DNA from: a virus
Strand: one strand, 5' to 3'
Virus record (IMG/VR): IMGVR_UViG_3300048914_000111
Span: 1 to 20,526 of that record
Length of the DNA stretch: 20,526 nt
The translations under genes were made by a program, and so were the position numbers. The notes under the pieces are model-generated. The model made no database searches. It worked only from the letters and a program-made list of their open reading frames with translations, and was not told the origin of the DNA. This document shows, one piece after another, positions 474 through 20,526 of this stretch (the first letter of the stretch is position 1; each line of letters begins with the position of its first letter).

Positions 474-812
474 CTATTCGAGGAAAGCGTTGAGGAATTC
501 GTCGTCGCCAGTGGCGATCACTACAGGCCCTGTAAGAGGCTGATTGATCCGATGCCCCTTGGCCCGAGCTACGAAGTGCCACATGGCCGTAGCCCAGTGG
601 TTGACTTGCAGTCCCATTGCCGGAGCATCTTCATTCACGATGACCGTAGCCTGACGGAACACGCCGTCGAAGTCCACGTTCTGGTCCCAGTGCGGAACGA
701 TCTGTACCGTACCACCTACGATCATCTGTAGGTCGGCGAAGTTCGGGGGGTAGCCCAGTAGCCGCAGCTCCATAGGCTTGTCGGGGTAGACGATGGTCAG
801 CTGACCTCTCAT
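474..812 (-). CDS. DUF3846 domain protein
   Basis: A 112-residue protein. I start it at ATG 812 because this ATG overlaps the stop codon of the upstream ATPase gene (ATGA), implying translational coupling; an upstream in-frame ATG at 863 would lie deep in the ATPase gene. The middle carries 'LQMIVGGTVQIVP' (about residues 28-40), then 'VNEDAPAMGLQVNHWAT' (59-75) and 'LTGPVVIATGDDE' (93-105). That order of a GG-turn strand, a VNEDG-like turn, an N-x-x-A segment and a G-PVVI strand is typical of DUF3846, a small domain of unknown function common in phages. The TGPV segment is encoded by a copy of the 13-bp palindrome. Confidence 0.72.
   Translation of the reverse strand: MRGQLTIVYPDKPMELRLLGYPPNFADLQMIVGGTVQIVPHWDQNVDFDGVFRQATVIVNEDAPAMGLQVNHWATAMWHFVARAKGHRINQPLTGPVVIATGDDEFLNAFLE
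522..534 (-). repeat. 13-bp palindrome, centre GCC
   Basis: TACAGGCCCTGTA, inside the DUF3846 gene. On the coding strand it reads in frame as Thr-Gly-Pro-Val. Confidence 0.9.
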
Positions 813-1621
813 TCTGGCAGCTCCAGTTTCTTCATGCCACCTGCGATGTAAGCATCCCACCACTTGGCGATGGTTTCCTGTCCCGCATCTGGCTTGTCGA
901 TGTTGTACTTGAACTCGAACTCCGCCGCACCGTCCTGCTTGAACATGCGACTACCCATCGGCTTGTGTCCGCGACACGGACGAACCGCGATACGCCGCTT
1001 GTTGCCAGTACCGGGGTCCGAGAAGTGCCAGACCTCCGAGATTTGCAGACTGGTCTGGTTGACGGCTTTCTCAGACATCATGATGGAGATATACAGGAAC
1101 TCACCCTTGTCGTTGGTGGTTGCTGTATCCTCATGCCCGATGATCCAACAATGCATTCCCATCTTACGGGTAGCACGCAGGATTACGCCGGTTGCCTGAA
1201 TGAGATACTGCGTCCGGGCACCATAGGCAGACTGTCCGGGTTCTTCGATGGTCGGAGTGAACTTGTTCGACTTACCGATGCCCTTGGAGACGGCAGTGTT
1301 GAACGCGGCTTGGTAGAATGACGACGCACTGTCGAACAGAAGAGTGTCGCCGGGTTGGGCACCAGACTGCTCAATCTTCGTCCCGATCTTGGTAGTCATG
1401 ACCCGAACGATGTCCTCGGATGGCTGATCGGAGTAGTCCCACACGGTGACGTCATCGCGGTAGCCGATCGCCTGCCAACCGTCGGGGTCGAGGTTGATGA
1501 CGTACTTGTGACCGGGGGATGTCGCAGCGAAGGTGGTCTTACCAGATTTGGGCGGACCCCATATGATGCCCGACATGCGACTGGTAGGGCGCGGTGGGGC
1601 GGCAGTTTCTTCATCAGCCAT
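809..1621 (-). CDS. Phage RecA-fold AAA ATPase (AAA_24 / Sak4-like)
   Basis: A 270-residue P-loop ATPase, about the usual length for phage nucleotide-binding proteins of the AAA_24 group. The Walker A motif is GPPKSGKT at residues 22-29. A Walker B-like strand is 'TLLFDSASS' (93-101, D97), and a later hydrophobic strand ends in a polar turn, 'HCWIIGHED' (157-165). Such proteins, including Sak4-type single-strand annealing ATPases, sit beside DUF669 or SSB-like genes and Cas4-like nucleases and act in homologous recombination or replication. The start at 1621 follows a GGAGACGACA Shine-Dalgarno region and overlaps the upstream gene by 8 bp. Its stop overlaps the next start. The precise biochemical role is inferred. 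Confidence 0.8.
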   Translation of the reverse strand: MADEETAAPPRPTSRMSGIIWGPPKSGKTTFAATSPGHKYVINLDPDGWQAIGYRDDVTVWDYSDQPSEDIVRVMTTKIGTKIEQSGAQPGDTLLFDSASSFYQAAFNTAVSKGIGKSNKFTPTIEEPGQSAYGARTQYLIQATGVILRATRKMGMHCWIIGHEDTATTNDKGEFLYISIMMSEKAVNQTSLQISEVWHFSDPGTGNKRRIAVRPCRGHKPMGSRMFKQDGAAEFEFKYNIDKPDAGQETIAKWWDAYIAGGMKKLELPE

Positions 1622-1847
1622 TGTCGTCTCCAGATGTATCTACGTCGATGAAGTCCTTAGTGATTTGTACCGCATCGTCCGTATTGAACATCAGGATTGA
1701 ACCCTTGAACTCTTTGGTCCAGTACCAGCGGTAGTTTGGTGTTTGGCTTGTTTCTTTCCAACCGAACATCTGTAGATAAGTGCGTTTGGCGTCGGCAAGT
1801 TGGCGTTCAAGTGTCTCCAACACTTCCTTGTATGATCGTTCTTCCAT
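1614..1847 (-). CDS. Hypothetical small protein
   Basis: A 77-residue protein that I do not recognise. The first 28 residues form a charged amphipathic helix ('YKEVLETLERQLADAKRTYL'), followed by an aromatic segment ('PNYRWYWTKEFKGSILMF') and an acidic tail. The start at 1847 has a strong AGAGGAAACAA Shine-Dalgarno sequence. Its 5' end overlaps the upstream gene by 41 bp and its 3' end overlaps the ATPase gene by 8 bp, so it is translated within the recombination operon. The function is unknown. Confidence 0.7.
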   Translation of the reverse strand: MEERSYKEVLETLERQLADAKRTYLQMFGWKETSQTPNYRWYWTKEFKGSILMFNTDDAVQITKDFIDVDTSGDDNG

Positions 1848-2121
1848 TTGTTTCCTCTGGTTGGACCGCTACAGGAGCTGTAGTCGGCCAGTCGTCCCAT
1901 CGAACTCTGTTCTCGATGACCTTCTTACCGAGGCCCTCCACACGGTCGAGTTGATACCTCAACCGTGGGAACAGTTCGACGTCCATGTCCTCAAGCAGAT
2001 CGAGTAGGACATGCTCAAGGCAGTTGCGTTCAGTTGACGCTAGGATCGCCTGTTTCGTCAGCTTGATCAGGTCCACTACCGGCAGCTTCTTCAACACGCC
2101 GTTGGTTGGCAGCTGCTGCAT
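1807..2121 (-). CDS. Hypothetical protein with long overlaps on both sides
   Basis: A 104-residue protein with no recognised family. It is helical in the first half ('VVDLIKLTKQAILAST', 'LEHVLLDLLEDMDVELF') with a Pro/Gly-rich C-terminus. ATG 2121 is preceded by GGAGGGCCTTC, a near-ideal Shine-Dalgarno sequence, which supports this start despite a 92-bp overlap with the upstream gene. The 3' end overlaps the next gene by 41 bp. A 13-bp palindrome copy near the end encodes Thr-Ala-Pro-Val in frame. Confidence 0.65.
   Translation of the reverse strand: MQQLPTNGVLKKLPVVDLIKLTKQAILASTERNCLEHVLLDLLEDMDVELFPRLRYQLDRVEGLGKKVIENRVRWDDWPTTAPVAVQPEETNGRTIIQGSVGDT
1870..1882 (+). repeat. 13-bp palindrome, centre GAG
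   Basis: TACAGGAGCTGTA near the 3' end of the minus-strand gene 1807-2121, encoding Thr-Ala-Pro-Val there. Its central A is on the plus strand, one of few left-arm copies with reversed polarity. Confidence 0.9.
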
Positions 2122-2323
2122 GAAGGCCCTCCAGTTGCATCGCGACCGCCTTGATCACGAAATCGACATCCAGTGTCGCAAGGGTCGTTAGGTGTGTACC
2201 ACCTTCATCGGGGTGCATCACCAGAATAGAGAACCGTGCTGGGTAGTACGCATTCTCCAAGAAGTCGATCAGTCCAGCATACCGCCCTTCGACGGGCAGG
2301 AGTGTATCCTCAGGCACTTGCAT
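2030..2323 (-). CDS. Hypothetical protein
   Basis: A 97-residue protein that I do not recognise. The start at 2323 has a clear AAGGAGA box six bases upstream and overlaps the end of the nuclease gene by 14 bp. The N-terminal half looks globular and mixed alpha/beta ('GRYAGLIDFLENAYYPARF', 'TLATLDVDFVIKAVA'). The last 25 residues are polar and Gly/Asp-rich, and this tail lies in the 92-bp overlap with the next gene, so it may be less constrained. Context suggests an accessory factor in the recombination operon; nothing more can be supported. Confidence 0.65.
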   Translation of the reverse strand: MQVPEDTLLPVEGRYAGLIDFLENAYYPARFSILVMHPDEGGTHLTTLATLDVDFVIKAVAMQLEGLHAAAANQRRVEEAAGSGPDQADETGDPSVN

Positions 2324-3383
2324 CTAGTCTCTCCTTGATTGCTCTCTGGCTTGGTGTGAGAGGAGCCTGAACCATTCCATCCAAAATGTCCTGTCGGTCT
2401 TGCGGGTCAGCAGAGCAGAGGTCGATAAACGCACATGCCCGGAAGTAACGAGAACAGGAATGAGTGAACTGGGGCGCACTAAGTGGATCGTCACCAAATC
2501 GGGTGTTAAGCTCATCGGCAAAGAACAGGCTTCGGACCCAATCTTCGAGCTGGAAGTCCTCTCGTTCTTCGATGAAGGCATAGTAGTCCTCATTGCTTCG
2601 GGTTTGCTTGATCTTAATGCCAATCATGCGGACCTTAGTGACTTCGAGGCCGGTGAGCAGTCGTGCCACAGCGATGTAACCAGTCGGCTGGGACTTGACC
2701 TGATACGACTTACGCCATGTCTCGTCTAGCCTCGATGCCGTCTTATTCTCATCGACCATTGCCGTACCGGGATACTTCTCCGGACAAGTGATGCCGTCGA
2801 TGGTCCCGATGTAGCGGATGCTGCGATCGCCCTGCTCGATGATGATGTCGAACACCTGTTCGATGCCTACAGGAGCTATAGGATCGTTGATGTCCGCCAC
2901 CCATATCGGGTTGGCGTCCATCCGAGGCATCTGCTCATCAACATACTTGATGATCGTCTCCTCCATATTCGCCAACGTCCGGGTCTTATCGTTGGGATCG
3001 TCGTAGTAGTCCCCAGTGTTGAGCACCTTGAAGCAGAACGACAGGAGTTCGTCTCGCGGGGAGGTATTGATCACCTTCCAGCTATCACGGAAGCGCGTTG
3101 GATGGTCCTCGTCGTTGAATAACCGTTCACCGTGGAACTTGAAGTGATCAGGTAGGTTCTGTAGCCGAAGCAGTTGCCACAATCGAACCGCAGCAAAGAC
3201 CTCGTGCATAGCACCCCCAGCTTCGAGTGGGAGTTGCCGGTTCTGGATGGGGTAGTACAAGCCCTTCGCGTACCGGATCAGCCCCCACACAGGACAGGTG
3301 AGGATAGCCTCAACGATCGAGTGTGAGTAGGCGAACATGTGCTGATCGGCAGGGGTGGTGTAGCGGATGTTGATACTGGTCAC
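2310..3383 (-). CDS. Cas4/RecB-like PD-(D/E)XK nuclease, likely Fe-S
   Basis: A 357-residue nuclease of the PD-(D/E)XK superfamily. Visible catalytic motifs are 'GGAMH' (H60), 'GTIDGI' (D196), 'DENKTA' (E212-x-K214) and a QxxxY-like motif 'QPTGY' (Q232, Y236), the signature of Cas4/AddB/RecB-type exonucleases. Four cysteines, C30 near the N-terminus and C310, C317, C323 near the C-terminus, match the split arrangement that holds a 4Fe-4S cluster in Cas4 and AddB. It would process DNA ends for recombination together with the adjacent RecA-fold ATPase and DUF669-like protein. The start is GTG 3383, overlapping the upstream stop as GTGA. No CRISPR array or cas1/cas2 is seen, so a phage recombination role is more likely than spacer acquisition. 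Confidence 0.85.
   Translation of the reverse strand: MTSINIRYTTPADQHMFAYSHSIVEAILTCPVWGLIRYAKGLYYPIQNRQLPLEAGGAMHEVFAAVRLWQLLRLQNLPDHFKFHGERLFNDEDHPTRFRDSWKVINTSPRDELLSFCFKVLNTGDYYDDPNDKTRTLANMEETIIKYVDEQMPRMDANPIWVADINDPIAPVGIEQVFDIIIEQGDRSIRYIGTIDGITCPEKYPGTAMVDENKTASRLDETWRKSYQVKSQPTGYIAVARLLTGLEVTKVRMIGIKIKQTRSNEDYYAFIEEREDFQLEDWVRSLFFADELNTRFGDDPLSAPQFTHSCSRYFRACAFIDLCSADPQDRQDILDGMVQAPLTPSQRAIKERLDASA
2868..2880 (+). repeat. Degenerate 13-bp palindrome (one mismatch)
   Basis: TACAGGAGCTATA, one base off the consensus, inside the nuclease gene. It still reads in the common frame, as Ile-Ala-Pro-Val. Confidence 0.6.
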
Positions 3384-3580
3384 GGGATGTTCTTCTTCGC
3401 ACGGAACTTGGGTGCAGGCTTGGGAAGTACCGCTTCTACAGCACCTGTAGGCCGCCCAAGTAGTTCAACAATCACGTCATCGATCGTACGAGCCGGTGTC
3501 TCATCGTCACCAAACTTCGTCATCGCCCGTAGCTTCGCAGCCGTGTCGGCTGATACGGACAGTAGCACATTGTTAGGCAT
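3380..3580 (-). CDS. Small protein, possible ribbon-helix-helix type
   Basis: A 66-residue protein. The N-terminal 45 residues follow a strand-helix-helix pattern ('NVLLSVSADTAAKLRAM' then 'TIDDVIVELLGRP'), which resembles ribbon-helix-helix DNA-binding proteins such as VapB-like regulators. The tail is basic ('KPAPKFRAKKNIP'). It could be a small regulator, but no partner toxin is seen. The start overlaps the previous stop (TGATG) and has an AGGAAG box. The in-frame palindrome copy encodes Thr-Gly-Ala-Val. The DNA-binding assignment is a guess from the pattern alone. Confidence 0.6.
   Translation of the reverse strand: MPNNVLLSVSADTAAKLRAMTKFGDDETPARTIDDVIVELLGRPTGAVEAVLPKPAPKFRAKKNIP
3437..3449 (+). 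repeat. 13-bp palindrome, centre CAC
   Basis: TACAGCACCTGTA inside the gene at 3380-3580, read in frame as Thr-Gly-Ala-Val. Confidence 0.9.
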
Positions 3581-3858
3581 CAGTTCTTCCTATCTCCTGT
3601 GACCAATCCGAAGTCGTCGCCTTGGAACTTCTTCTCGATCTTCTCCAGATGACGCTTGTGGTCCTTGAACCCAGCATTGAGCAGCTTCGTCGCATCGAGT
3701 AGTGCTGCCTGATGGGTCATCAGTTCATTGACGAGCTTCTCAAGAGCACGTTGCGTCTCGTGAAGTTCGACAAAGACCTCGATGACGTCAGGATGGACTT
3801 CCGCCTTGCTCAGCTTGCGGACGATTACCTCGACGTCGAGTGTTACCAGAGCTACCAT
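3580..3858 (-). CDS. Hypothetical coiled-coil protein
   Basis: A 92-residue protein, predominantly helical, with heptad-like spacing across residues 30-80 ('ELHETQRALEKLVNELM', 'DHKRHLEKIEKKF'). The start at 3858 follows GAGGAGACTGACA. The family is unknown. It shares its stop with the next start and overlaps the upstream gene by 71 bp. Coiled-coil proteins of this size in phage early operons are often inhibitors or oligomerisation factors, but nothing here specifies one. Confidence 0.65.
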   Translation of the reverse strand: MVALVTLDVEVIVRKLSKAEVHPDVIEVFVELHETQRALEKLVNELMTHQAALLDATKLLNAGFKDHKRHLEKIEKKFQGDDFGLVTGDRKN

Positions 3859-4156
3859 TGTCAGTCTCCTCAGGAGGAATTACAGCTCCTGTAGTTGCGT
3901 TCATCACAGTCTCGATGGCCGAGATCGTCTTATCGAGGTCAGTCACACGTTCAGCCCAATACCGTGCCATCTCCCCAGCCCCTTTGCGTTCTTCGCTGAG
4001 GTCGTGAAGCTGATCACGGAGGCTGGCGTAGAGGGTGATGGATGCGACATTGGGTGCAGGAAGCACGCTTGGTGCCTGCGGTGTTTGTGTTAACGCATTC
4101 AGGTTGTTGATGTAATCCTCTGCGAGGTACTCATTCTCTCCGGGACTGTCAGCCAT
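3788..4156 (-). CDS. Hypothetical protein
   Basis: A 122-residue protein. I use ATG 4156 ('MADSPGENEYLAEDY') instead of the far-upstream ATG at 4300, which lies inside the previous gene. The chosen start follows an AAAGGACGG region and gives a normal 8-bp overlap. A helical centre ('LRDQLHDLSEERKGAGEM') is followed by a low-complexity polar tail rich in Gly, Ser, Asn and Arg. No family is recognised. The palindrome copy at 3881 encodes Thr-Gly-Ala-Val before the tail. Confidence 0.65.
   Translation of the reverse strand: MADSPGENEYLAEDYINNLNALTQTPQAPSVLPAPNVASITLYASLRDQLHDLSEERKGAGEMARYWAERVTDLDKTISAIETVMNATTGAVIPPEETDNGSSGNTRRRGNRPQAEQGGSPS
3881..3893 (-). repeat. 13-bp palindrome, centre CTC
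   Basis: TACAGCTCCTGTA (AGGAG on the minus strand), inside the gene at 3788-4156, read as Thr-Gly-Ala-Val. It lies 22 bases before the next start, which has its own Shine-Dalgarno sequence. Confidence 0.9.
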
Positions 4157-4640
4157 CGAGCCCGTCCTTTCCGAAGAACTCACCGAGGATGTCGAATAGC
4201 TTATCAACGTCCTCAGGCGAATTGAGGCTAATCGCGATAATACCCGGCGGTAGGTCGGCTGTCGGCGGATTGAGCTTTCCTCGTGACCAAGCGATGACAT
4301 GCTCGTAAGTCCTTATCTTCTCCATGATCGCATCATGTTCCGCAGCAGGAATAACCGTGTCCCGCGGGTACGACTGCTCCAAGTGGGTAACGTGTGCCTG
4401 TGCATGTTCGATGACCTCGTTGTGAGCAGCCTCGTAGCCCTCAGCATACGGATCACTCGGCTGAGGCTCGTCAGCTACAGGTGCTGTAACTTCTTGTCCG
4501 AAGCGTAAATCCTTATCAAACTCCGCGATAATAGCATTTCGAACAGCATCACGCGTTGAATGCTCTTTCGTCCCTGCTAATTCTATACGATCCTGCCAAT
4601 AAGCATAATCTCGTGCGAGCGTAATAATATCTCGGGGCAT
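4149..4640 (-). CDS. Hypothetical protein
   Basis: A 163-residue acidic protein. The N-terminal half is helical ('MPRDIITLARDYAYWQDRI', 'DAVRNAIIAEFDKDLRFG'), with a Pro/Asp linker around residues 50-65 and a C-terminal segment 'IIAISLNSPEDVDKLFDIL'. The start at 4640 follows AGGAGACTGAT and lies two bases after the upstream stop. I do not recognise the family. The linker contains an in-frame palindrome copy (Thr-Ala-Pro-Val). Confidence 0.68.
   Translation of the reverse strand: MPRDIITLARDYAYWQDRIELAGTKEHSTRDAVRNAIIAEFDKDLRFGQEVTAPVADEPQPSDPYAEGYEAAHNEVIEHAQAHVTHLEQSYPRDTVIPAAEHDAIMEKIRTYEHVIAWSRGKLNPPTADLPPGIIAISLNSPEDVDKLFDILGEFFGKDGLDG
4476..4488 (-). repeat. 13-bp palindrome, centre GTG
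   Basis: TACAGGTGCTGTA inside the gene at 4149-4640, encoding Thr-Ala-Pro-Val. Confidence 0.9.
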
Positions 4641-4641
4641 A

Positions 4642-4953
4642 TCAGTCTCCTAGCTCCTGTTGAATGAGTGTAATGCTTCCGTCCAGTCGGCGAGCCTCAC
4701 GGAGGAGATCGTCGACCTTATCGAGCTTGTCCCGAACGTCGTCCAACATCTTCTCAGCACGTTCGGTGAGCTTGGTGAACTTCTCCAAGTCCTTGCCGGA
4801 CAGACGTGATAGCTTATCCCGTTTGAGTTGGTTGGTTTCGACGGCTGCGAGGAGGCGTCGATTGCGTCGTTGCTCAGCACGTTCCTGTAGGACGTGAAGG
4901 GGGATATCGCGGATGTTGGGATGAGTGTAGAGGGTTGGGTCGGTGGCCGTCAT
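4642..4953 (-). CDS. Hypothetical coiled-coil protein
   Basis: A 103-residue, highly charged protein. Residues 25-95 form an almost continuous helix with Leu/Arg/Asp heptads ('LSRLSGKDLEKFTKL', 'DDVRDKLDKVDDLLREA'), so it is probably an elongated coiled coil. ATG 4953 overlaps the stop of the upstream micro-gene (ATGA) and follows GAGGCGAGCAA. The family is unknown. Confidence 0.67.
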   Translation of the reverse strand: MTATDPTLYTHPNIRDIPLHVLQERAEQRRNRRLLAAVETNQLKRDKLSRLSGKDLEKFTKLTERAEKMLDDVRDKLDKVDDLLREARRLDGSITLIQQELGD

Positions 4954-5105
4954 TTGCTCGCCTCGACCAGCTCATATAGCTTCTTCACCATCTCACGACG
5001 ATGCAGATACTCCATGCCACTTTCTGCGTTGCGGATGTCGAGTTTGGCCTCAGCGACATAAGCTTCGATGACCTCGATGATCTGATCGACCTGTTCCTTG
5101 GTCAC
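4950..5105 (-). CDS. Small hypothetical protein, GTG start
   Basis: A 51-codon gene between two others. GTG 5105 overlaps the upstream stop as GTGA and is preceded by GAGGAGTGAGAC, a strong Shine-Dalgarno sequence at a good distance. The stop TGA overlaps the next ATG. The peptide is helical and charged, starting TKEQVDQIIEVIEAY and ending YELVEASK. The family is not recognised. Tight coupling on both sides is the main evidence that it is real. Confidence 0.7.
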   Translation of the reverse strand: MTKEQVDQIIEVIEAYVAEAKLDIRNAESGMEYLHRREMVKKLYELVEASK

Positions 5106-5533
5106 GTCTCACTCCTCGGTACATCCCCGATATAATCGACCGAGATGCTGATCGGAGCAGCCGAGAGCTTGTTGCACTGTTCGGCCAGTTCTCGAAGCTG
5201 ATGCTTCATAATCTCGGGGTAGGTGTTGCTGATCAAGTCGATGAACTTTTCCTTGTCGAACGACGCACGGGGAGTGCCTTCGCCGACTTCACGGCGGTAG
5301 TTGTTGGAGAGCGTGACAGCAGAGATGTCGCTATCGCGGTACTGCTTCTTGAGCCGATCCTCTAGCTTGTCGAGACGTGGATTCACGATCTTAGCGATGC
5401 GTTTCAGGACGAAGTGTTCGGCCATATCGGCGTCGAGTGCGTCCTGAGAGTTATACGGGAGCTGATGGAGAGTCTTATCAACTACAGCTGCTGTAACAGC
5501 CGAGACTTCGGCTTCGGTCATGACTGATTTCAT
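5102..5533 (-). CDS. Hypothetical protein
   Basis: A 143-residue, mostly helical protein. ATG 5533 overlaps the upstream stop (ATGA); a second in-frame ATG four codons later is the alternative start. A charged centre ('VNPRLDKLEDRLKKQYRDS') is followed by a helix and then a short strand-like end ('ISISVDYIGDVP'). No family is recognised. A palindrome copy in the first 20 residues encodes Thr-Ala-Ala-Val. Confidence 0.68.
   Translation of the reverse strand: MKSVMTEAEVSAVTAAVVDKTLHQLPYNSQDALDADMAEHFVLKRIAKIVNPRLDKLEDRLKKQYRDSDISAVTLSNNYRREVGEGTPRASFDKEKFIDLISNTYPEIMKHQLRELAEQCNKLSAAPISISVDYIGDVPRSET
5483..5495 (-). repeat. 13-bp palindrome, centre CTG
   Basis: TACAGCTGCTGTA near the 5' end of the gene at 5102-5533, read as Thr-Ala-Ala-Val. 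Confidence 0.9.
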
Positions 5534-5757
5534 TTCACTTCCTCAAATCGATCGAAGAACTCTTTCTCAGGCCGAACATAGAATGCGGTAGGATCATTCG
5601 CGTTTCGGTACAAGACAACTTCACGACCATCCACATCGGGAAACTCCCCGTTGCTGTCGAAATAGTCATCGTGGTCACGCCAGTTCTCGGCTTGTACAAT
5701 AGCCTTACCGATAATCTGATAGAAACCACCTGTCTTTTTGTGGCGGTATGTCGTCAT
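5530..5757 (-). CDS. DUF1653-like protein
   Basis: A 75-residue protein with the features of DUF1653: an N-terminal 'YRHKKTGGFYQIIGKA' (Tyr-Arg-His followed by a Gly-x-Tyr strand), a central 'GREVVLYRNA' and the ending 'FYVRPEKEFFDRFEEV', matching the family's V-V-Y and VRP-x-x-x-F signatures. The family is a small beta-rich domain of unknown function found in bacteria and phages. The start at 5757 overlaps the upstream stop (ATGA). The palindrome copy at 5763 lies just before the start, with AGGA about 11 bases upstream. Confidence 0.75.
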   Translation of the reverse strand: MTTYRHKKTGGFYQIIGKAIVQAENWRDHDDYFDSNGEFPDVDGREVVLYRNANDPTAFYVRPEKEFFDRFEEVK

Positions 5758-5984
5758 GTATCTACAGGTCCTGTAATACGGGTGATCTCCCTGACACTCC
5801 CATCCGGACCGAGCGTCACCCGCTCGACTAGGCCCGATGGGTAACAGTCCAAGTACGTACCCTGCGATACGTCATGATCATACGCGAGCCAGACCCGCCA
5901 ATGCTGGTCCGGACCACGTACTAAGAACGGTGCTTGCTTGGAATGTGGTGTTATGATGCCGATACGTGGGGCGGAGAACGTCAA
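5754..5984 (-). CDS. Hypothetical protein, TTG start
   Basis: A 76-residue beta-rich protein ('GIITPHSKQAPFLVRG', 'HWRVWLAYDHD', 'LVERVTLGPDGSVREI'). The start I choose is TTG 5984, overlapping the upstream stop as TTGA, with AGG ten bases upstream. No internal ATG gives a better fit. The last codons (Thr-Gly-Pro-Val-Asp-Thr) are encoded by the palindrome copy at 5763. The family is unknown. Confidence 0.62.
   Translation of the reverse strand: MTFSAPRIGIITPHSKQAPFLVRGPDQHWRVWLAYDHDVSQGTYLDCYPSGLVERVTLGPDGSVREITRITGPVDT
5763..5775 (-). repeat. 13-bp palindrome, centre GTC
   Basis: TACAGGTCCTGTA. It encodes Thr-Gly-Pro-Val at the end of one gene and lies 5 bases upstream of the next gene's ATG at 5757. 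Confidence 0.9.
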
Positions 5985-6244
5985 AGATAAGCCTCAAGAT
6001 CACGTTCAGCACGATGGCGCTGTTTGATGAACTCGATGATTGGCTTGGATCGTTTGTCGGCATCGCGCAAGGCGTCAAATGCCTGACCCGCTTTCACGCG
6101 ACGAGTTGTCGCTTCGGGAGGAACGGTTTGTTCTCCCCAGCCCGTCCACATAACTTCTTCATGGGCGGCAGCCTCCTCAAAACGAAAAACAGCTTCGAGG
6201 GCTATGATGTATAGTTGCTCAAGCTCAGAGCGTACCTTAGTCAT
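5981..6244 (-). CDS. Hypothetical protein, first gene of its transcription unit
   Basis: An 87-residue helical protein ('SELEQLYIIALEAVFRFEE', 'FIKQRHRAERDLEAYL'). ATG 6244 follows AGGAG. It is the first gene after the leader that starts near the promoter-like box at 6392-6397, so it heads the leftward unit containing the recombination genes. The family is not recognised. Confidence 0.68.
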   Translation of the reverse strand: MTKVRSELEQLYIIALEAVFRFEEAAAHEEVMWTGWGEQTVPPEATTRRVKAGQAFDALRDADKRSKPIIEFIKQRHRAERDLEAYL

Positions 6245-6391
6245 TGCGCATACTCCTCTTTTCGGTCGGCGCGTTACAGGTGCTGTAGTAGAACAAGGGG
6301 CGACTGACTACCAAACAGCCGCCCCTCGGATGGCGAAGGAGCTAGGAACTCACACACGCCCTCTATCGTGAGGACAAGCCTCTCCGATCTG
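6245..6391 (-). other. Leader of the leftward unit, with hairpin and palindrome
   Basis: No gene is seen here. Read leftward it is an approximately 140-nt 5' untranslated region holding an inverted repeat AGGGGCG (6296-6302) / CGCCCCT (6320-6326), then the 13-bp palindrome at 6275, then the start at 6244. Confidence 0.5.
6275..6287 (-). repeat. 13-bp palindrome, centre GTG
   Basis: TACAGGTGCTGTA in the leader, 30 bases before the ATG at 6244. Confidence 0.9.
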
Positions 6392-6397
6392 ATTATA
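6392..6397 (-). promoter_or_regulatory. Leftward promoter -10 box (TATAAT)
   Basis: The minus strand reads GTGTATAATCAG, a perfect -10 hexamer just downstream of a terminator. No convincing -35 is seen 16-18 bases upstream. It is well placed to start the unit 6244 to 1. Confidence 0.5.
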
Positions 6398-6431
6398 CAC
6401 TCACAAACTCAGGGATTAGGCAAGCTAAATA

Positions 6432-6453
6432 TTTTGCGTACCTTAACGCAAAA
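6432..6453. other. AT-rich perfect hairpin
   Basis: TTTTGCGT (6432-6439), a 6-base loop, then ACGCAAAA (6446-6453). It adjoins the leftward terminator and may extend it or serve as a weak terminator itself. Confidence 0.5.
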
Positions 6454-6500
6454 AGAAACCCGCCAACAGCCCCGAGGGTTCGAGAAGCTGTTGACGGGCT
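6449..6500 (-). terminator. Rho-independent terminator, leftward
   Basis: On the minus strand a 12-bp stem, CCCGTCAACAGC pairing with GCTGTTGGCGGG (one G-T pair), is followed by TTTCTTTTT. It ends the unit that contains the gene at 6616-7029. Confidence 0.85.
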
Positions 6501-6504
6501 AGTG

Positions 6505-6522
6505 CCCACACGGCGGTGTGGG
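6505..6522 (-). other. GC-rich hairpin after the gene at 6616
   Basis: CCCACAC (6505-6511), loop GGCG, GTGTGGG (6516-6522): a 7-bp stem without a T-run, immediately before the terminator in the leftward transcript. It may protect the 3' end of the RNA. The 93 bases between it and the gene stop at 6616 show nothing I can assign. Confidence 0.5.
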
Positions 6523-6615
6523 TAATCAGGGAGGAAACATCATGCTCACGGTGGGATAGGCATGGGAAAACCGTTCGCACAACGTGGATAGAGCAGATAT
6601 AAGACGGTGGTGTTG

Positions 6616-7029: not shown

Positions 7030-7042
7030 TTCTTCCTCCATG

Positions 7043-7072
7043 AAAAAGGCCCCGGAGTTCTCTCCGAGGCCC
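7043..7072 (-). terminator. Rho-independent terminator, leftward
   Basis: The minus-strand stem GGCCTCGGAG (7062-7071), loop AGAA, CTCCGGGGCC (7048-7057) is followed by TTTTT (7043-7047): a textbook terminator for the gene at 7097-8116. The next gene's Shine-Dalgarno sequence starts directly after the T-run. Confidence 0.92.
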
Positions 7073-7078
7073 AAGAAC

Positions 7079-7091
7079 TACAGGTCCTGTA
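7079..7091 (-). repeat. 13-bp palindrome, centre GTC
   Basis: TACAGGTCCTGTA between the stop of the 7097-8116 gene and its terminator, in the 3' untranslated RNA. Confidence 0.9.
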
Positions 7092-7096
7092 GTCGG

Positions 7097-8116
7097 TTAC
7101 TTCTTCTTGCCTTCACCGGCCACTTCCGCAGCGGCCAGCTTCTTCTTCTGCTCCTCGCCCTTGGCCCAAGCGGTCAGGGTTTCATCGAGGAACGGCACAA
7201 TCGACTGGAGCTGACGGATCATCTCAGGCGTGAACTCGCCTTCCTGAGCCGACACGACACGACGCAGGTTATTCACGATGGCACCGAAGTCCTCATCGCT
7301 GATCCCCAGCTTGGCGTCGCCGGAACGATCGTTGCCCTTGTCGGCACGAGCGTCGATACCCGGCTTGACCTCACCTTCGGCCTTCTTGTGCGCATCAGCC
7401 GCAACACGGATAACCGCAGCCAGCGTCGGAGCAACCTTCGCACCTTCGTTCGGGTTGCGCTTGCCGAACTCGACCGTAGTGCTGCCGTTGTTCTTCGTCT
7501 TGTCGCCGACGAGGAACTCCGGTGCGTTCTCGATCACAGCCTTGACCGAGCCGTTCTCCTCGACGATCTTGAGGTCCGCAGCCTTCGTGCCGCCATCGAG
7601 CAGGCCGATAGCGAACTTGCAGGCATCGGACAGACGCATATTGAGACGCTTCCGGTTGTTGAACCGGCGAGTATACTCAGCTTCGTCCTTGTCCTTGTCG
7701 ACTGCGGAGTAATCGTACTCCTTCTGGTGCGACGGGTCAGTCCAAGACACGACGATCTCGTCGTCCTTGATCTCTTTCTTGACCACGCCGAACATCTGGA
7801 GCAGGCGAGTATTCAGCTTCTCGACCTTCTTGCCGCCCTCGAAGATCGCGAAGATATTCAGCTCCGGGTCCTTCTCGTGAGCAGTCATCACGGCCTTGGA
7901 CAGTTCAAAGCCGATGAACTTCCGCACCTGCTCGCCGGTGTCGACGGCAGCCGCGATTTCTTCGTCGTAGCTAGCCTGCTGGATCAGAGCCTTGAGCAGA
8001 TCGTTACCGAACGCAGCCATGTTGTTCGGGTCGAACGCCTTGAGCTGCGGGACGGTTGCGTTGATCGCAACGGTCGGGAGCTGTTCGGAGGTAGTTTCGT
8101 TAATGACTTCAGCCAT
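7097..8116 (-). CDS. Large hypothetical protein, probably well expressed
   Basis: A 339-residue soluble protein, the second largest on this arm, and not recognised. It has an acidic first half ('VKKEIKDDEIVVSWTDPS', 'DKDKDEAEYTRRFNN'), a central 'RLSDACKFAIGLLDGG', and a Lys-rich C-terminus ending in three lysines. Translation starts at 8116 after AAGGAACTATGAA, a Shine-Dalgarno sequence shared with other well-led genes here. A strong terminator follows directly. Codon choice is more GC-biased than in its neighbours. Size, terminator and leader suggest abundant expression, perhaps as a DNA-binding or structural early protein; this is inference. Confidence 0.75.
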   Translation of the reverse strand: MAEVINETTSEQLPTVAINATVPQLKAFDPNNMAAFGNDLLKALIQQASYDEEIAAAVDTGEQVRKFIGFELSKAVMTAHEKDPELNIFAIFEGGKKVEKLNTRLLQMFGVVKKEIKDDEIVVSWTDPSHQKEYDYSAVDKDKDEAEYTRRFNNRKRLNMRLSDACKFAIGLLDGGTKAADLKIVEENGSVKAVIENAPEFLVGDKTKNNGSTTVEFGKRNPNEGAKVAPTLAAVIRVAADAHKKAEGEVKPGIDARADKGNDRSGDAKLGISDEDFGAIVNNLRRVVSAQEGEFTPEMIRQLQSIVPFLDETLTAWAKGEEQKKKLAAAEVAGEGKKK

Positions 8117-8117
8117 T

Positions 8118-8516
8118 TCATAGTTCCTTGTTGAGTTGTTGCTCGAACCAGTCGTCGTCTACAGGTCCTGTAGTGTCGGCCTGATACCGAATGGTAGTCA
8201 CCATCGGCTGGTCCATATGGATGTTAGGCACGGTGACGGGGAAGCATATCTTAACTTCCACCGCATCTGCAATAGCATTCAGCGTGTTGCAGAATTTCTG
8301 ACGGGCATCGATGGTCTGAAAACCATACAAGCCCGCTGGACGGACGACGGAGTAATCCCCGACGACCTTACGTGTTTGGTGCGCTTCATGCAGATCAGTA
8401 AGCAGTTCGTACGGAACTCCTACAGCTTCTGTAAGTAACGCATGATACTTGTACCCGGCTAGTTGTGTCGGGAGGTAGAATATGGGCGGGTTGTCCCTCC
8501 CACGTTGGTCAGCCAT
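8118..8516 (-). CDS. Hypothetical protein
   Basis: A 132-residue protein with no recognised family, mixed alpha/beta: 'YKYHALLTEAVGVPYELL', 'FCNTLNAIADAVEVKICF' and 'MVTTIRYQAD'. The start at 8516 has GGGAG upstream. Two palindrome copies lie inside and both read in the Thr-x-x-Val frame. The final codons (Lys-Glu-Leu, stop) double as the Shine-Dalgarno region of the next gene. Confidence 0.67.
   Translation of the reverse strand: MADQRGRDNPPIFYLPTQLAGYKYHALLTEAVGVPYELLTDLHEAHQTRKVVGDYSVVRPAGLYGFQTIDARQKFCNTLNAIADAVEVKICFPVTVPNIHMDQPMVTTIRYQADTTGPVDDDWFEQQLNKEL
8160..8172 (-). repeat. 13-bp palindrome, centre GTC
   Basis: TACAGGTCCTGTA inside the gene at 8118-8516, encoding Thr-Gly-Pro-Val, 43 bases before the next start at 8116. 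Confidence 0.9.
8421..8433 (-). repeat. 13-bp palindrome, centre CTT
   Basis: TACAGCTTCTGTA inside the same gene, encoding Thr-Glu-Ala-Val. Confidence 0.88.
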
Positions 8517-8574
8517 TCATTGCGTTCTCCCTAGCAAGGCGTGGAGGGCAGAAAAGAGAAATCGCCTTTGTCCA

Positions 8575-8970: not shown

Positions 8971-9134
8971 TCGCTACAGCTCCTGTAATACTCCCGAGTG
9001 ATCGAGGCATAACTCTCCTCGGCTTCGTCACCAAAGCCCTCATCAAGCAGCAAATCGTCGGAGTGGTCCTGTGCTGTCATCTCGATGACTGGCATGTCAT
9101 TGGTATCGTCATAGACGAGAACGAGCTTAGGCAT
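8967..9134 (-). CDS. Small acidic hypothetical protein
   Basis: A 55-residue acidic protein beginning MPKLVLVYDD, with a patch 'DDLLLDEGFGDEAEESY'. I use ATG 9134, nine bases after an AGG; ATG 9140 two codons earlier is equally possible. It overlaps the end of the upstream gene by a few bases. Its last residues (Tyr-Arg-Ser-Cys-Ser-Glu) come from the palindrome copy at 8975, here in an unusual frame. The family is unknown. Confidence 0.6.
   Translation of the reverse strand: MPKLVLVYDDTNDMPVIEMTAQDHSDDLLLDEGFGDEAEESYASITREYYRSCSE
8975..8987 (-). repeat. 13-bp palindrome, centre CTC, acting as ribosome binding site
   Basis: TACAGCTCCTGTA. On the minus strand its AGGAG lies nine bases before ATG 8970, and it also encodes the C-terminus of the preceding gene. 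Confidence 0.9.
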
Positions 9135-9420: not shown

Positions 9421-9440
9421 TCGTAGTTCCTTTCCTGATT

Positions 9441-9481: not shown

Positions 9482-9489
9482 GTAGTAGC

Positions 9490-10423: not shown

Positions 10424-10436
10424 TACAGCTCCTGTA
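10424..10436 (-). repeat. 13-bp palindrome, centre CTC, acting as ribosome binding site
   Basis: TACAGCTCCTGTA between two genes. Its minus-strand AGGAG is seven bases before ATG 10421. Confidence 0.9.
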
Positions 10437-11045: not shown

Positions 11046-11058
11046 TACAGGTCCTGTA
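11046..11058 (-). repeat. 13-bp palindrome, centre GTC
   Basis: TACAGGTCCTGTA filling the 18-base gap between the stop at 11060 and the start at 11041. Its AGGAC is the likely ribosome binding site. Confidence 0.9.
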
Positions 11059-11403: not shown

Positions 11404-11409
11404 GTAGTT

Positions 11410-11971: not shown

Positions 11972-11972
11972 T

Positions 11973-11985
11973 TACAGCTCCTGTA
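11973..11985 (-). repeat. 13-bp palindrome, centre CTC, acting as ribosome binding site
   Basis: TACAGCTCCTGTA. Its minus-strand AGGAG is six bases before the TTG start at 11971. Confidence 0.9.
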
Positions 11986-12027: not shown

Positions 12028-12038
12028 CACTGAGATCA

Positions 12039-12519: not shown

Positions 12520-12529
12520 GTTGATGCTG

Positions 12530-12625
12530 CTACAGGACCTGTAGCCCTCCGATGAAAACGAGGATGAACAGAATTGCGGAGAGGATGATTAGCCCCTCCG
12601 CAGTTGCGAGGATGAGGTTGATCAT
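12530..12625 (-). CDS. 31-residue membrane peptide
   Basis: ATG 12625 overlaps the stop of the gene at 12622-13071 (ATGA). The peptide starts MINLILATAEGLIILS and is almost entirely hydrophobic, with only one charged residue (Glu10): one membrane-spanning helix. The palindrome at 12531 encodes its last residues (Leu-Gln-Val-Leu) and its stop codon TAG. Phage membrane micro-proteins act as holins, antiholins or exclusion factors, but size and hydrophobicity alone cannot tell which. Confidence 0.58.
   Translation of the reverse strand: MINLILATAEGLIILSAILFILVFIGGLQVL
12531..12543 (+). repeat. 13-bp palindrome, centre GAC
   Basis: TACAGGACCTGTA. It supplies the 3' end and stop of the membrane peptide gene; its polarity is opposite to most left-arm copies. 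Confidence 0.9.
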
Positions 12626-17088: not shown

Positions 17089-18296
17089 TGGGCGACGTTC
17101 GTGTTTCTCCATATGATCGAGCACAGTTGCTGCTAACGCGTATGAAGTCTTTCGTCACGCCAGTAGCTATGGCATCCCCACCGACAGTAGCTGCGCCGGG
17201 TACACACTTTGGTGCGTCAACTATTGCGAGTGCTAAGACAATCCTGCCGAATGCGGCTTCGCAGCAATTGTTTCTTGGCACAGATGTCATCATCGATGCT
17301 GGTGGATCGCGCGCAAACCCGGCTCATATCCGGCTCAGTTCAACAGCTGGTACTGCTGGTAAGGGTGACTATTTCGGCGGCAACTTTACCAAACGCGCCA
17401 TCATGACGGATGCTGATGTGGTGGAGTTCCAGTTCGATCACGCGCCCGGTGGGTCATTTCGATTTTTTGTGGACGATCAGCCGGTGCAGGTCGCTGGGAC
17501 CGCGACCTTCACGGACTTCACCGTACGGCGTTCAAAGCTAACATTCGCCTCGTCGGCCGCGCGTAAGATTGAACTGGAACTGACGAAGGGTGCCCACTGG
17601 GAGATTTGCGTCGGGCCAAACTACAGTGTCTGGAAGCCCGAGGTCGATCCTCTGCGTGTAATGCTTATCGGTGATAGCTATATCGATAATGGTGGATACG
17701 CGACAACATACATCGACAGCTTGGGGCCACAACTCGCCAGAACCTTTGGCGTGCCTGATGTATTCCTTGCTGGTTATGGTGGGCAGAGTTATAACACAGT
17801 TGTACCAGTAGGCATGAGTGGGACGGGTTATCCTATTTCACATATCCCGTATGACATTACGCCGTACAAGCCGGACTGGTTGATTGTTGCTCTCGGTATC
17901 AACGATTTTACGGCTACAGCATCTGCATTACAAGCTGCTGTAACTGCGTACTACACAGCTATTTTCGCGGCTAATCCAAACATGATTGTTACGGTTATTG
18001 GACCGTGGAATGCTCCCGGCCAGATTGTACCAAGCGCAATAGCGAATGCAATTCGTGATGGTGTTGCGGCACTAACGGCGTACGTGACGACGAAGCAGAT
18101 CATGTATATCGACACATTCTTGGAGGATTGGTTCCAGAATGCTGGTCGTGTTGGCGCCCCCTCGGGTGCGGGTAACTCCAATATCTACATTGGTGCAGAC
18201 AACATTCACCAAGTACAAGCTGGACAGGATTTCCTCCGTCGTAGAATTGCTAATGCGTGTATGCAACACCTAGAGGCAATCTTAGCATCGCGGTAA
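17088..18296 (+). CDS. SGNH/GDSL hydrolase spike protein
   Basis: A 402-residue protein in two parts. Residues 1-185 are beta-rich and Gly/Thr/Ser-rich, as in virion attachment domains. Residues 188-400 form an SGNH hydrolase: block I 'VMLIGDSY' (S197 nucleophile), block II Gly in 'GYGGQS' (G231), block III 'GIND' (N272) and block V 'DNIHQ' (D371, H374 catalytic pair). Phage SGNH spike domains remove ester-linked groups such as acetyl from host surface polysaccharide during adsorption. The start at 17088 overlaps the upstream stop. No signal peptide is present, as expected for a virion protein. The substrate is not predictable here. Confidence 0.85.
   Translation: MGDVRVSPYDRAQLLLTRMKSFVTPVAMASPPTVAAPGTHFGASTIASAKTILPNAASQQLFLGTDVIIDAGGSRANPAHIRLSSTAGTAGKGDYFGGNFTKRAIMTDADVVEFQFDHAPGGSFRFFVDDQPVQVAGTATFTDFTVRRSKLTFASSAARKIELELTKGAHWEICVGPNYSVWKPEVDPLRVMLIGDSYIDNGGYATTYIDSLGPQLARTFGVPDVFLAGYGGQSYNTVVPVGMSGTGYPISHIPYDITPYKPDWLIVALGINDFTATASALQAAVTAYYTAIFAANPNMIVTVIGPWNAPGQIVPSAIANAIRDGVAALTAYVTTKQIMYIDTFLEDWFQNAGRVGAPSGAGNSNIYIGADNIHQVQAGQDFLRRRIANACMQHLEAILASR
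17915..17942 (+). repeat. Two degenerate palindrome-like sites
   Basis: TACAGCATCTGCA (17915-17927) and TACAAGCTGCTGTA (17929-17942) side by side in the SGNH gene; both depart from the consensus and may be chance or decayed copies. Confidence 0.3.
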
Positions 18297-18302
18297 TCCA
18301 AC

Positions 18303-18315
18303 TACAGGAGCTGTA
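18303..18315 (+). repeat. 13-bp palindrome, centre GAG, acting as ribosome binding site
   Basis: TACAGGAGCTGTA abutting ATG 18316. AGGAG is five bases from the start and is the only Shine-Dalgarno candidate. Confidence 0.93.
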
Positions 18316-19656
18316 ATGAAAACCGCACTGAAATTACTCCTCGCAGGTGCCGGTGGGCTCGGTGGTATGGGTGGTGGGCTGCTTCGTACCGTACCAGATA
18401 CCGCTGATAGTTTCTACTTAGTCGTACGGAATAATGATGGTACGGCTGATGCTATTCGGTTTCAGCGGAATGTTGGTGGTGCTGCTGGTGCTGATCTTGG
18501 TGGTATGTGGCCAGAGTGGCGGTTCACTGGACGTGCTAGGCTCGCTTCATTCTTCGCAAGTCCTACATCACCAACAGTCACGTTTACGACTGATACAGGC
18601 GCACAGGACATTGTTGGGTTCAACGGGTCCAAGTATATGGGATCATATCATGGCCTAGGTGCTGGTGGCTCACTCAGCTCTGAGACGTTAACACTCGATG
18701 GTGCAGCGTTTGATCCAACGACGGCAAGAATAGGTAATGTCTTTGTACTGCGCAACACGACTGTAGCAACGGACGGAGCTAACAGCTTTACTCGCGATCT
18801 TACGACGACCATCAGCTTTGGGGGTGCAGTTCGTTATAAGATCAATTCAATCTCGACCAGTGGCACAGTTTCGCTGATTTATCTCGGCATGCTGATTGGT
18901 ACTGGTGCCTATGACGAAGCAGACGTACAAGTTGTTACCAATGGCCCGTGGTTAGCACTACCCACGCTTACTGCTACTAACGATGTATTCGGTCGGATAT
19001 TTGCACAGGTTGTGCCCAAAGGTATCAGGCTTCGGGATACTGTAACTGGCCGTGCTGTCACGTTGGTCGGTTCACTTATTTCGGGTCTTGCTGATTACGT
19101 GCAGACCGAACTGCTCCGAGAGATTGCGGGGACAGATCGTCTCAAGGGTTACTTTGGCCGCTTTGCTACTATTTCGGCACTAACCGGTGCTGAGTGGGAA
19201 ACGAATGCTGCGATCGTAGCGACAGGTTCGCAGGTTGTAGCATCGAACTTATTTACGAATGGCGACTTTGCTACTGGCGACTTTACTGGTTGGACGCGGC
19301 AAACCGGTGCTGTTGCTCCAACCGTTGTCAGTGGTGCTATGCGACAGGTACGTGAAGCAGCCGCTAATCACAGAATGCGGCAGACGAATAGTTTTGCGGT
19401 GGCGTTGTCAGACGTGATGGCTTATCGGCTTGATGTAGTTGCCTTGTCTGGTGGCGCATCACCGTGGGCACGTGTATCACAGAGTAATGCGCTATCGTTT
19501 GTTAGTGCGATGGTCGATCGTCAAGTGACGGCTGGTCGATGGGTTTTTGTTTTCCTGCCGAACATCAATCCGATTTGGGCGGGTATCGAGCACAGTCTTG
19601 GTGGTGTTGCTGACACACTCGATACCGACAACTATTGGTTGGGTAAGTTGGGCTAA
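18316..19656 (+). CDS. Tail fibre/spike-like virion protein
   Basis: A 446-residue protein. Residues 1-21 share the MKTALKL...GMG module with the protein at 16906. The bulk is Gly/Thr/Ala-rich and beta-like ('SFYLVVRNNDGTADAI', 'TLTLDGAAFDPTTARIG'), typical of fibre or spike proteins. From about residue 312 the segment 'NLFTNGDFATGDFTGWTR' opens a probable carbohydrate-binding module of the CBM_4_9 type (N-G-D-F...W-x), continuing to the end. It probably binds host surface glycan next to the SGNH enzyme. The start at 18316 uses the palindrome as ribosome binding site. Confidence 0.72.
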   Translation: MKTALKLLLAGAGGLGGMGGGLLRTVPDTADSFYLVVRNNDGTADAIRFQRNVGGAAGADLGGMWPEWRFTGRARLASFFASPTSPTVTFTTDTGAQDIVGFNGSKYMGSYHGLGAGGSLSSETLTLDGAAFDPTTARIGNVFVLRNTTVATDGANSFTRDLTTTISFGGAVRYKINSISTSGTVSLIYLGMLIGTGAYDEADVQVVTNGPWLALPTLTATNDVFGRIFAQVVPKGIRLRDTVTGRAVTLVGSLISGLADYVQTELLREIAGTDRLKGYFGRFATISALTGAEWETNAAIVATGSQVVASNLFTNGDFATGDFTGWTRQTGAVAPTVVSGAMRQVREAAANHRMRQTNSFAVALSDVMAYRLDVVALSGGASPWARVSQSNALSFVSAMVDRQVTAGRWVFVFLPNINPIWAGIEHSLGGVADTLDTDNYWLGKLG

Positions 19657-19669
19657 TACAGGAGCTGTA
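19657..19669 (+). repeat. 13-bp palindrome, centre GAG
   Basis: TACAGGAGCTGTA directly after the stop of the fibre gene. Its AGGAG is six bases before a GTG that opens an 11-codon frame (19671-19706), which may be chance. Confidence 0.9.
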
Positions 19670-19758
19670 AGTGCGTCTGTTTCGTAGATGGGATTTGTGC
19701 ACGTAACTAAGTATAGACAACACCTTTGTGCTTTATCAGCGGTCGCCGCCAATAGAAC

Positions 19759-19771
19759 TACAGGACCTGTA
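19759..19771 (+). repeat. 13-bp palindrome, centre GAC, acting as ribosome binding site
   Basis: TACAGGACCTGTA abutting ATG 19772 of terL, with AGGA in the Shine-Dalgarno position. Confidence 0.92.
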
Positions 19772-20526
19772 ATGAAGTACAAGATCATCGAAGGGTCGGT
19801 CCAAGACCAATTCCGGCTCGGACGAAAGAAGATACAGCTGTTTGGCGGCGGATTTGGTAACGGCAAGTCCGCCGCTTCGTGTGTGAAGGGCATCAACCTC
19901 GCACTGTCATATCCCGGATCGAATGGGCTCATTGGCCGAGCTACCTACGCCAAGCTCAATGATACGGTCCGTAAAGAGTTCTTCAAGTGGCTACCTGCGA
20001 AGTATATCGCAAAGATGCCGACGGTAAATGAGAATACGCTCTACCTCACCAACGGCTCGGTGGTCAACTTCCGTTACATTGCTCAGCGTGGTAAGAAAAC
20101 CAATGATGGGCAGACGACATCGAACCTCTTGTCGGCAACGTACGATTGGGCGATTGTAGATCAGATCGAGGACCCGGAAATCCTGTACAAGGACTTCCTC
20201 GATCTCATGGGTCGTATGCGTGGTAGCACCCCGTACAAGGGGAGTGACCCGACGATGCCTATGACAGGGCCTCGGTTCCTGATGCTCACGACGAACCCGA
20301 CTGGTAACTGGGTGTACTCGAAGCTCGTGAAGCCGTATCATGAGTACCTCGCTACAGGACATGTAGGCCCTGACCTAATCGTTGATGAGGACACACTTGA
20401 ACCCATCATCGAAGTATTCGAGGGTCCGACAGACGACAATGCGCACAACCTCGATGCTGACTTCATCAAGGGTTTGAAGGCGACGTATAAGGGACAGATG
20501 TATGAACGCTTCTTCCTTGGTAAGTG
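19772..20526 (+). CDS. terL: Terminase large subunit (N-terminal ATPase part), runs off window
   Basis: 251 complete codons are visible of a gene that continues past the right edge. The Walker A motif is GGGFGNGKS at residues 25-33. A 'GLIGRATYAKLNDTV' segment (52-66) matches the region after Walker A in large terminases. Walker B is 'DWAIVDQIED' (125-134), with D130 and acidic residues after it. The coupling motif 'LTTNP' is at 172-176. This is the packaging motor ATPase that pumps DNA into the capsid; the C-terminal nuclease lies outside the window. The start at 19772 abuts the palindrome at 19759. A further palindrome variant at 20353 reads Thr-Gly-His-Val in frame. Confidence 0.92.
   Translation, partial: MKYKIIEGSVQDQFRLGRKKIQLFGGGFGNGKSAASCVKGINLALSYPGSNGLIGRATYAKLNDTVRKEFFKWLPAKYIAKMPTVNENTLYLTNGSVVNFRYIAQRGKKTNDGQTTSNLLSATYDWAIVDQIEDPEILYKDFLDLMGRMRGSTPYKGSDPTMPMTGPRFLMLTTNPTGNWVYSKLVKPYHEYLATGHVGPDLIVDEDTLEPIIEVFEGPTDDNAHNLDADFIKGLKATYKGQMYERFFLGK
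20353..20365 (+). repeat. Degenerate 13-bp palindrome (one mismatch)
   Basis: TACAGGACATGTA inside terL, encoding Thr-Gly-His-Val in the common frame; the same variant as at 14976. Confidence 0.75.

Follow-up and report, generated by a model that had tools for sequence, protein, structure and literature searches.

A genome-covering array of 13-bp palindromes in a phage, evenly spaced and changed in sequence between related clades

The DNA considered here is a stretch of 20,526 nucleotides of a virus (positions 1 to 20,526 of IMG/VR record IMGVR_UViG_3300048914_000111; "the window" means this whole stretch), and the element in question is a 13-bp palindrome, TACAGNNNCTGTA, which occurs in it in 27 exact copies. 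We computed that the copies belong to an array extending over the entire phage genome, that their spacing is far more even than random placement produces, that the palindrome is exchanged for other palindromes in related clades, and that a part of the site positions is conserved. From these features we infer, tentatively and with slightly less than even confidence, that the palindromes are the DNA sites of a dimeric, sequence-specific and probably phage-encoded protein that organises or protects the whole chromosome.

An earlier note on this DNA had listed 27 exact copies as well as one-mismatch copies at 2868..2880, 14976..14988 (in a noncoding region described below) and 20353..20365 (in the large terminase gene). 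Each of the exact copies was found in its place, and the three imperfect ones were real. Two more one-mismatch copies, at 17622..17634 and 17915..17927, were absent from that list and may be due to chance; the total of one-mismatch copies in the window was five. The note had also proposed to compare the motif with shuffled sequence, to count it over the whole phage genome and to look for its conservation in related phages. The enrichment was not reproduced by composition-preserving shuffles: the exact TACAGNNNCTGTA appeared in none of 100 dinucleotide-preserving shuffles of the window, compared to 27 copies in the real sequence. Matches with at most two mismatches numbered 37, while the shuffles had 6.96 on average and 13 at the maximum.

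The count over the whole phage was made in IMGVR_UViG_3300048913_000115 (46,155 bp), which spans the entire window at 100% identity. Because the ends of this record are identical over 127 bp, the map of the genome (labelled G001 below) is circular, with 46,028 bp. The record has 55 copies of the palindrome, and 54 unique ones remain once the copy that falls in the end overlap is discounted. The genome also has 10 one-mismatch copies compared to 1.0 in shuffled sequence.

Conservation in related phages was found as well, in the form of a 13-bp build that was kept while the palindrome sequence changed. We searched de novo for gapped palindromes and compared 24 records, labelled G001 (the window phage) and onwards. 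A palindrome class was carried by 22 of the 24: seven were TACAGNNNCTGTA-like, two (G008 and G015) had GTGTGANTCACAC, and thirteen had TATACNNNGTATA. The first two are called classes A and B below. No palindrome class was found in the 23.5-kb fragment G007 and in the G023 contig. The sequence TACAGNNNCTGTA itself was present in six records (G001, G002, G003, G004, G005 and G014), in some of them relaxed to TACANNNNNTGTA or CTACANNNNNTGTAG; G006, counted with the TACAGNNNCTGTA-like class, had TACAANNNTTGTA. The TATACNNNGTATA class was weaker, with 2–23 copies per record. In G008, all 35 copies were exact at the 12 fixed bases and none had a single mismatch. Four cultured distant relatives showed no such array; the top score among them, 20.8 compared to 152 for the window phage, came from an AT-rich repeat in API480.

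When a single 15-base version of GTGTGANTCACAC was scanned for, at least 120 loci were obtained, and at least 103 loci had two or more copies. The 68 non-redundant GTGTGANTCACAC loci (578 kb) contained 454 exact copies, 44 with one mismatch and 33 with two, while the respective numbers in a single shuffle were 1, 0 and 12. A protein family in common with the G008 phage was seen, among the matches listed, in 96 of the 103 loci, and five of the remaining seven were without a gene call; therefore, the motif is tied to one phage family. Apart from the known relatives, a corresponding scan with a 15-base version of the window motif returned the contig IMGVR_UViG_3300012944_000069, in which 21 copies occur within 14.9 kb; hits with two or three copies were set aside.

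The spacing of the sites was uniform to a degree that chance did not reach. The coefficient of variation of the gaps was 0.53 in G001, 0.60 in G003, 0.56 in G004 and 0.55 in G008, compared to about 1 for chance. In each of these four genomes none of 5,000 random placements was equally even. Two stricter placement nulls, one preserving the intragenic and intergenic numbers of sites and the other sampling near-matching positions, gave 0 of 5,000 in all eight tests. Both ends of the gap distribution were depleted: in the same order of genomes, short gaps numbered 2, 2, 3 and 3 (expected 11.6, 15.5, 14.9 and 7.4) and long gaps 0, 1, 1 and 0 (expected 4.3, 5.8, 5.5 and 2.7). The sites of G005 and G006 were also even, with P values of 0.0018 and 0.011. 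Regular coverage characterises the TACAGNNNCTGTA-like and GTGTGANTCACAC classes, and in the genomes of these classes the spacing itself appears to be under selection. The even spacing and the clade-by-clade change of the motif extend beyond what the earlier note had observed.

With respect to genes, the sites were placed in more than one way. Gene positions were taken from our own gene caller, which rewards Shine-Dalgarno words, so that distances to start codons are slightly biased; with this bias, 13 of the 54 sites of G001 were situated 0–6 nt upstream of a called start. Called genes contained 28 of the 54, and 22 of these 28 fell in a single frame, the one reading T-x-x-V. Noncoding DNA makes up 14% of the G001 genome. 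Long genes held several sites; for example, there were six in a 4.2-kb virion gene. Among the intergenic sites with an assigned direction, 12 of 24 had GGAGC at the centre (one site being counted twice through the end overlap), so those with this centre can serve as Shine-Dalgarno sequences. In-gene sites made up 45 of 72 in G003 and 50 of 69 in G004. In G008, 32 of the 35 sites were intergenic, and they often followed a stop codon and preceded a Shine-Dalgarno sequence; the TGA in the G008 motif keeps it out of one reading frame, which can explain its avoidance of coding DNA. The orientation of coding sites relative to transcription was balanced in G004 (15 one way, 16 the other way, 19 symmetric) and biased in G001 (13 versus 4, with 15 symmetric), thus the orientation test is partial.

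Between orthologues of class A, 151 coding sites were compared, and 33 of them coincided with a site of the partner within two alignment columns, with 2.9 expected; pairs with a site in just one of the two proteins are not among the 151. A part of the site positions is conserved, and the remaining sites have been turned over at a maintained density.

The earlier note had left it between a bound phage protein, RNA hairpins and a mark of self DNA. Binding of a protein to DNA was favoured by the analysis because the sequence changes while the 13-bp build is kept, because the coding sites have no consistent orientation, and because copies are present in the noncoding stretch. Hairpins in mRNA with a role in translation or processing, resembling a more elaborate kind of start-associated sequence, would agree with the sites that directly precede called starts and with the GGAGC centres. 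However, more than half of the G001 sites are within coding DNA, and none of 26 covariation tests in seven genomes detected excess pairing at the variable centre or flank positions (the ten to twelve fixed positions are outside the reach of this test). Pairing at the variable positions was even below expectation in G004 (8 versus 19.4) and in G008 (8 versus 17.2), and flank combinations in the larger GTGTGANTCACAC set leaned toward less pairing too. The isolated stems were weak, with –1.8, –1.8, –3.2 and 0 kcal/mol. The lack of excess pairing together with the weak stems makes RNA hairpins very improbable, the least probable of the explanations graded here. The palindromes may serve as a self-DNA mark such as methylation; no methyltransferase was among the family matches listed. 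We read the pattern as double-stranded DNA recognised by a protein with two-fold symmetry. As a separate observation, bases just outside the GTGTGANTCACAC palindrome, or at the centre of the G004 palindrome, avoid completing a longer palindrome (L093, L096 and L099).

The lead candidate for a clade-specific binding protein, still unproven, is the product of g08, an early 339-aa protein of unknown family encoded on the minus strand at 7097..8116. We detected the g08 family in 22 of 215 overlapping sources, and all 22 had a class A or B motif; a profile comparison (97.7%, E 2e-12) showed that the family has homologues in the clade with GTGTGANTCACAC. In the TATACNNNGTATA clade an early protein of another family, c023, similar in size to g08, stands at the hub of the sites. 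The c023 family was present in 44 of the 215 sources, 41 of them with at least two TATACNNNGTATA copies and three with fewer. No source among the 215 had both families, while G007 and the G023 contig had neither. Homology between g08 and c023 was unsupported by profile comparison (E 0.34). Structure models of fair to modest confidence (predicted local distance difference test, pLDDT, 78.0 for c023 and 69.5 for g08) matched no solved fold in the PDB, with the best E values of 0.16 and 0.59, respectively.

The second and less likely candidate is a 213-aa, small-terminase-like protein with a helix-turn-helix (HTH)-like stretch, encoded on the plus strand at 15974..16615. Its PHROG matches were weak (7.6e-4 and 3.4e-3) and were made to a longer open reading frame (ORF) in the same frame. 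The small-terminase-like HTH family was found in 23 of the 24 records. That it is present in the motif-less G007 and G023 too, and that the sequence is small-terminase-like, set this protein back as the sole binder. In G008, between the SSB-like and helicase genes, there is a small protein (L099:1225-1497) that we read as a ribbon-helix-helix protein of the TacA1-like kind. Its family is common to 19 GTGTGANTCACAC-clade loci, and Pfam TacA1 matched one of 53 proteins at 6.5e-6, presumably a member of this family. We rejected it as a general binder since no equivalent was found in the other clades. A 66-aa ORF at 3380-3580 in the window, ribbon-helix-helix-like by eye, had no PHROG match and was also set aside.

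If the palindromes are the sites of a chromosome-organising protein, a dimer of it would occupy a site about every 0.6–1.3 kb along the whole chromosome, and each clade would have its own matched pair of protein and site within a common 13-bp geometry. With both short and long gaps too few, the most likely job is coverage: the protein would coat, bridge or otherwise organise or protect the phage chromosome, possibly for condensation, for help in segregation or packaging, or for shielding. The sites would be fitted where they do the least harm, at gene junctions, with a possible double use as Shine-Dalgarno sequences, and in T-x-x-V codon runs. A bolder version, which we consider possible but doubtful, is a scaffold selected for its spacing, in which a clade-specific protein on a palindrome about every kilobase forms a chromatin-like array that arranges or shields the viral chromosome, and in which the pair of protein and site is re-invented or retuned as clades diverge.

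Several observations weigh against the organising protein. The g08 protein is without a recognised DNA-binding fold, and its agreement with the motif classes is confounded by shared ancestry. Among the 215 overlapping sources, 27 had neither motif nor candidate protein, and 100 class A or B loci, mostly fragments, had the motif without a candidate protein. Evenness was not significant in two small class A or B fragments, G014 (11 sites, P 0.31) and G015 (14 sites, P 0.35). The TATACNNNGTATA genomes were not even (P from 0.39 to 0.999), and three TATACNNNGTATA records have just 2–4 copies. Neighbouring sites showed no helical phasing that would support looping (one of 16 tests reached 0.037). 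The 33 coincident coding sites are not independent, as shared ancestral sites repeat over pairs; a terminase site alone accounts for ten of them.

The most serious rival, although an unlikely one, is a set of stoperator-like roadblocks, at which a phage regulator would stop or time RNA polymerase genome-wide, in lysogeny or for the separation of early and late expression. The intergenic sites of G008, commonly just upstream of a Shine-Dalgarno sequence, would suit it, as would the surplus in the noncoding region of G008 (five sites, 1.0 expected); on the other hand, the avoidance of coding DNA in G008 is explicable by the TGA in its motif. The variation of the motif by clade resembles that described for immunity groups (PMC3029335). 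However, even spacing within long genes and the lack of orientation are unexpected for roadblocks. No integrase was among the family matches listed for the window phage and its relatives, and no repressor among those for the window phage, in scans that covered a part of the proteins; several HTH-type regulators were among the matches listed for the related phages, which comprised the first 25 families in the G003/G004 and the G008/G013/G010 sets. Furthermore, a related capsid was found in just one of 84,980 species genomes. Since the constraint is apparently on distance and not on gene or promoter, we favour organisation or shielding of the chromosome over control gene by gene.

The binder could also be encoded by the host, as a chromosome organiser, a silencer or a modification enzyme, with the motif differing because hosts differ. 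With the phage binder itself an unproven candidate, this explanation counts against an organising protein of the phage. Nevertheless, the 96 of 103 GTGTGANTCACAC loci that belong to one phage family, the other seven being mostly short gene-less pieces, and the absence of any clearly unrelated carrier among the matches listed make a host protein improbable. Slightly less probable still is a bidirectional, Chi-like signal for recombination or nuclease control, or else a replication or priming signal, needed from either direction within about 1 kb. The spacing of the coverage type would suit such a signal, and palindromy would make it direction-free; the exactness of the G008 copies also fits, and the phage has a toolkit of a RecD-like helicase, a Sak4-like annealing protein and a polymerase joined to uracil-DNA glycosylase. 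Still, 10–12 fixed bases are long for a Chi site, and the wider GTGTGANTCACAC set departs from exactness, with 44 one-mismatch beside 454 exact copies.

In the window, the exact sites are distributed as follows. The copy at 522..534, TACAGGCCCTGTA, lies in an ORF in the T-x-x-V frame, as do those at 3437..3449, 4476..4488, 5483..5495, 8421..8433 and 16750..16762. Two copies are outside our called genes and inside listed minus-strand ORFs, 1870..1882 in ORF 1807-2121 and 3881..3893 in ORF 3788-4300, while those at 6275..6287 and 13165..13177 are intergenic. Called start codons are preceded at 5 nt by the site 5763..5775, at 2 nt by 10424..10436, at 4 nt by 11046..11058 and at 1 nt by 11973..11985. 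The start codon of the small-terminase-like gene is preceded at 2 nt by 15959..15971, an ATG is directly preceded by 18303..18315, and the ATG of the large terminase gene is directly preceded by 19759..19771. The centre is AGGAG in the copies at 10424, 11973, 15959 and 18303. The candidate gene g08 is flanked by a copy 5 nt past its stop codon (7079..7091) and by another 43 nt upstream of its start codon, within the preceding ORF (8160..8172). Further copies are close to the end of a called ORF (8975..8987), overlap the end of a doubtful 31-aa ORF (12531..12543) or stand immediately past a stop codon (19657..19669). Between the leftward and rightward operons there is a noncoding stretch of about 2 kb (13496..15559), with no confident gene by our own calls and one doubtful 32-aa ORF. 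It contains five exact copies, at 14125..14137, 14292..14304, 14794..14806, 15218..15230 and 15530..15542, the last one 17 nt upstream of the first rightward gene, and one one-mismatch copy.

With the large terminase (start at 19772) as a query we found at least 80 further viral loci and, in a set of 50,697 phage records, 12 with weak similarity. Many of these phages may come from soil, which was given no weight here. The major capsid protein matched six of the same 50,697 records at 22–26% identity, and the whole window had no megablast match among them. The single capsid relative mentioned above, from an alignment against one genome per species, is on a contig of 44.5 kb in the assembly of an uncultured bacterium. 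This contig, CASFCK010000011.1 (L135-L137), has about 25% GC content and a 44% identical capsid, sits in a metagenome-assembled bacterial genome and is without the palindrome array. The family A DNA polymerase of the window phage, encoded outside the window at L008:12477-15008, is joined to a uracil-DNA glycosylase superfamily domain in one protein. Tail-fibre-like, GDSL-hydrolase and unknown genes occupy window positions 16619-19656, between the small and large terminase genes, which is an odd place for tail and hydrolase genes; the GDSL-type hydrolase gene is at 17088-18296. In G003 and G004 (L092-L097), one of 52 early proteins had a Pfam Acb2/Tad1 hairpin-domain match at 1.4e-15 and is possibly an anti-defence sponge.

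Known dispersed phage sites are regulator sites placed by gene or promoter, while here the spacing itself looks selected, both in genes and between them. Spacing of this kind, genome-wide, in several clades and with different motifs, makes a phage chromosome that is organised, bead-like or shielded a proposition open to testing. The clades would also provide naturally matched pairs of protein and site in which changes of DNA specificity can be followed, and the 13-bp tags can be used to recognise this phage family in metagenomes.

The stoperators of cluster A mycobacteriophages such as L5 and Bxb1 are described as 13-bp asymmetric sites, oriented with transcription and mainly intergenic, to which an HTH repressor binds in temperate phages (PMC3029335). 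The array shares with them the many 13-bp copies over a phage genome and the consensus that differs between relatives (PMC3029335). Unlike stoperators, the sites here are palindromic, often intragenic, evenly spaced and unoriented in coding DNA (in G004; G001 is biased). A mainly intergenic placement is seen in G008 and not in G001, G003 or G004. The start-associated sequences (SAS) and extended SAS (ESAS) of cluster K mycobacteriophages are asymmetric 13-bp repeats, 11–19 per genome, reported as tied to translation starts (PMC3203893). The likeness is in a 13-bp repeat that includes a Shine-Dalgarno-like AGGAG beside start codons (PMC3203893); the differences are that the repeat here is a palindrome with a varying centre and that just 13 of 54 sites are 0–6 nt upstream of a called start. 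In Bacillus phage SPbeta, the 15-bp SPBRE motif is described in prophage promoter regions, where it is bound by MrpR (YopR), a repressor with a recombinase fold (PMC10516654). The common element is a set of recurring sites in the phage genome that serve a single DNA-binding protein of the phage, predicted in our case (PMC10516654). The present array covers the genome and is not limited to promoter regions, and no recombinase-like match was among the family matches listed.

No description of this array was found in the literature of open-licence PMC papers; in the text available from those papers the motif strings themselves occurred in plant papers alone. HIP1 of cyanobacteria, as far as its description goes, is a highly iterated palindrome too, but it is shorter and a feature of host genomes. 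The conserved inverted repeats of the temperate phage phiC31 are operators of a known repressor, spread over the genome and mainly near early promoters; they are alike in being several inverted-repeat sites over a phage genome. The E. coli matS site is palindromic. It is a 13-bp site that, with MatP, organises the chromosome and is reported in 23 copies over 800 kb (PMC3330122). As a repeated 13-bp site, matS would be the nearest in purpose if the organising role holds; the density here, about one site per 0.6–1.3 kb, is far higher, and no MatP relative was found among the family matches listed. We file the palindromes as putative dispersed protein-binding sites in a phage genome, probably outside each of these families. 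Judged by its sequence features, which depart from the defining ones of stoperators and start-associated sequences, the array is probably a distinct variant among the dispersed protein-binding sites of phage genomes.

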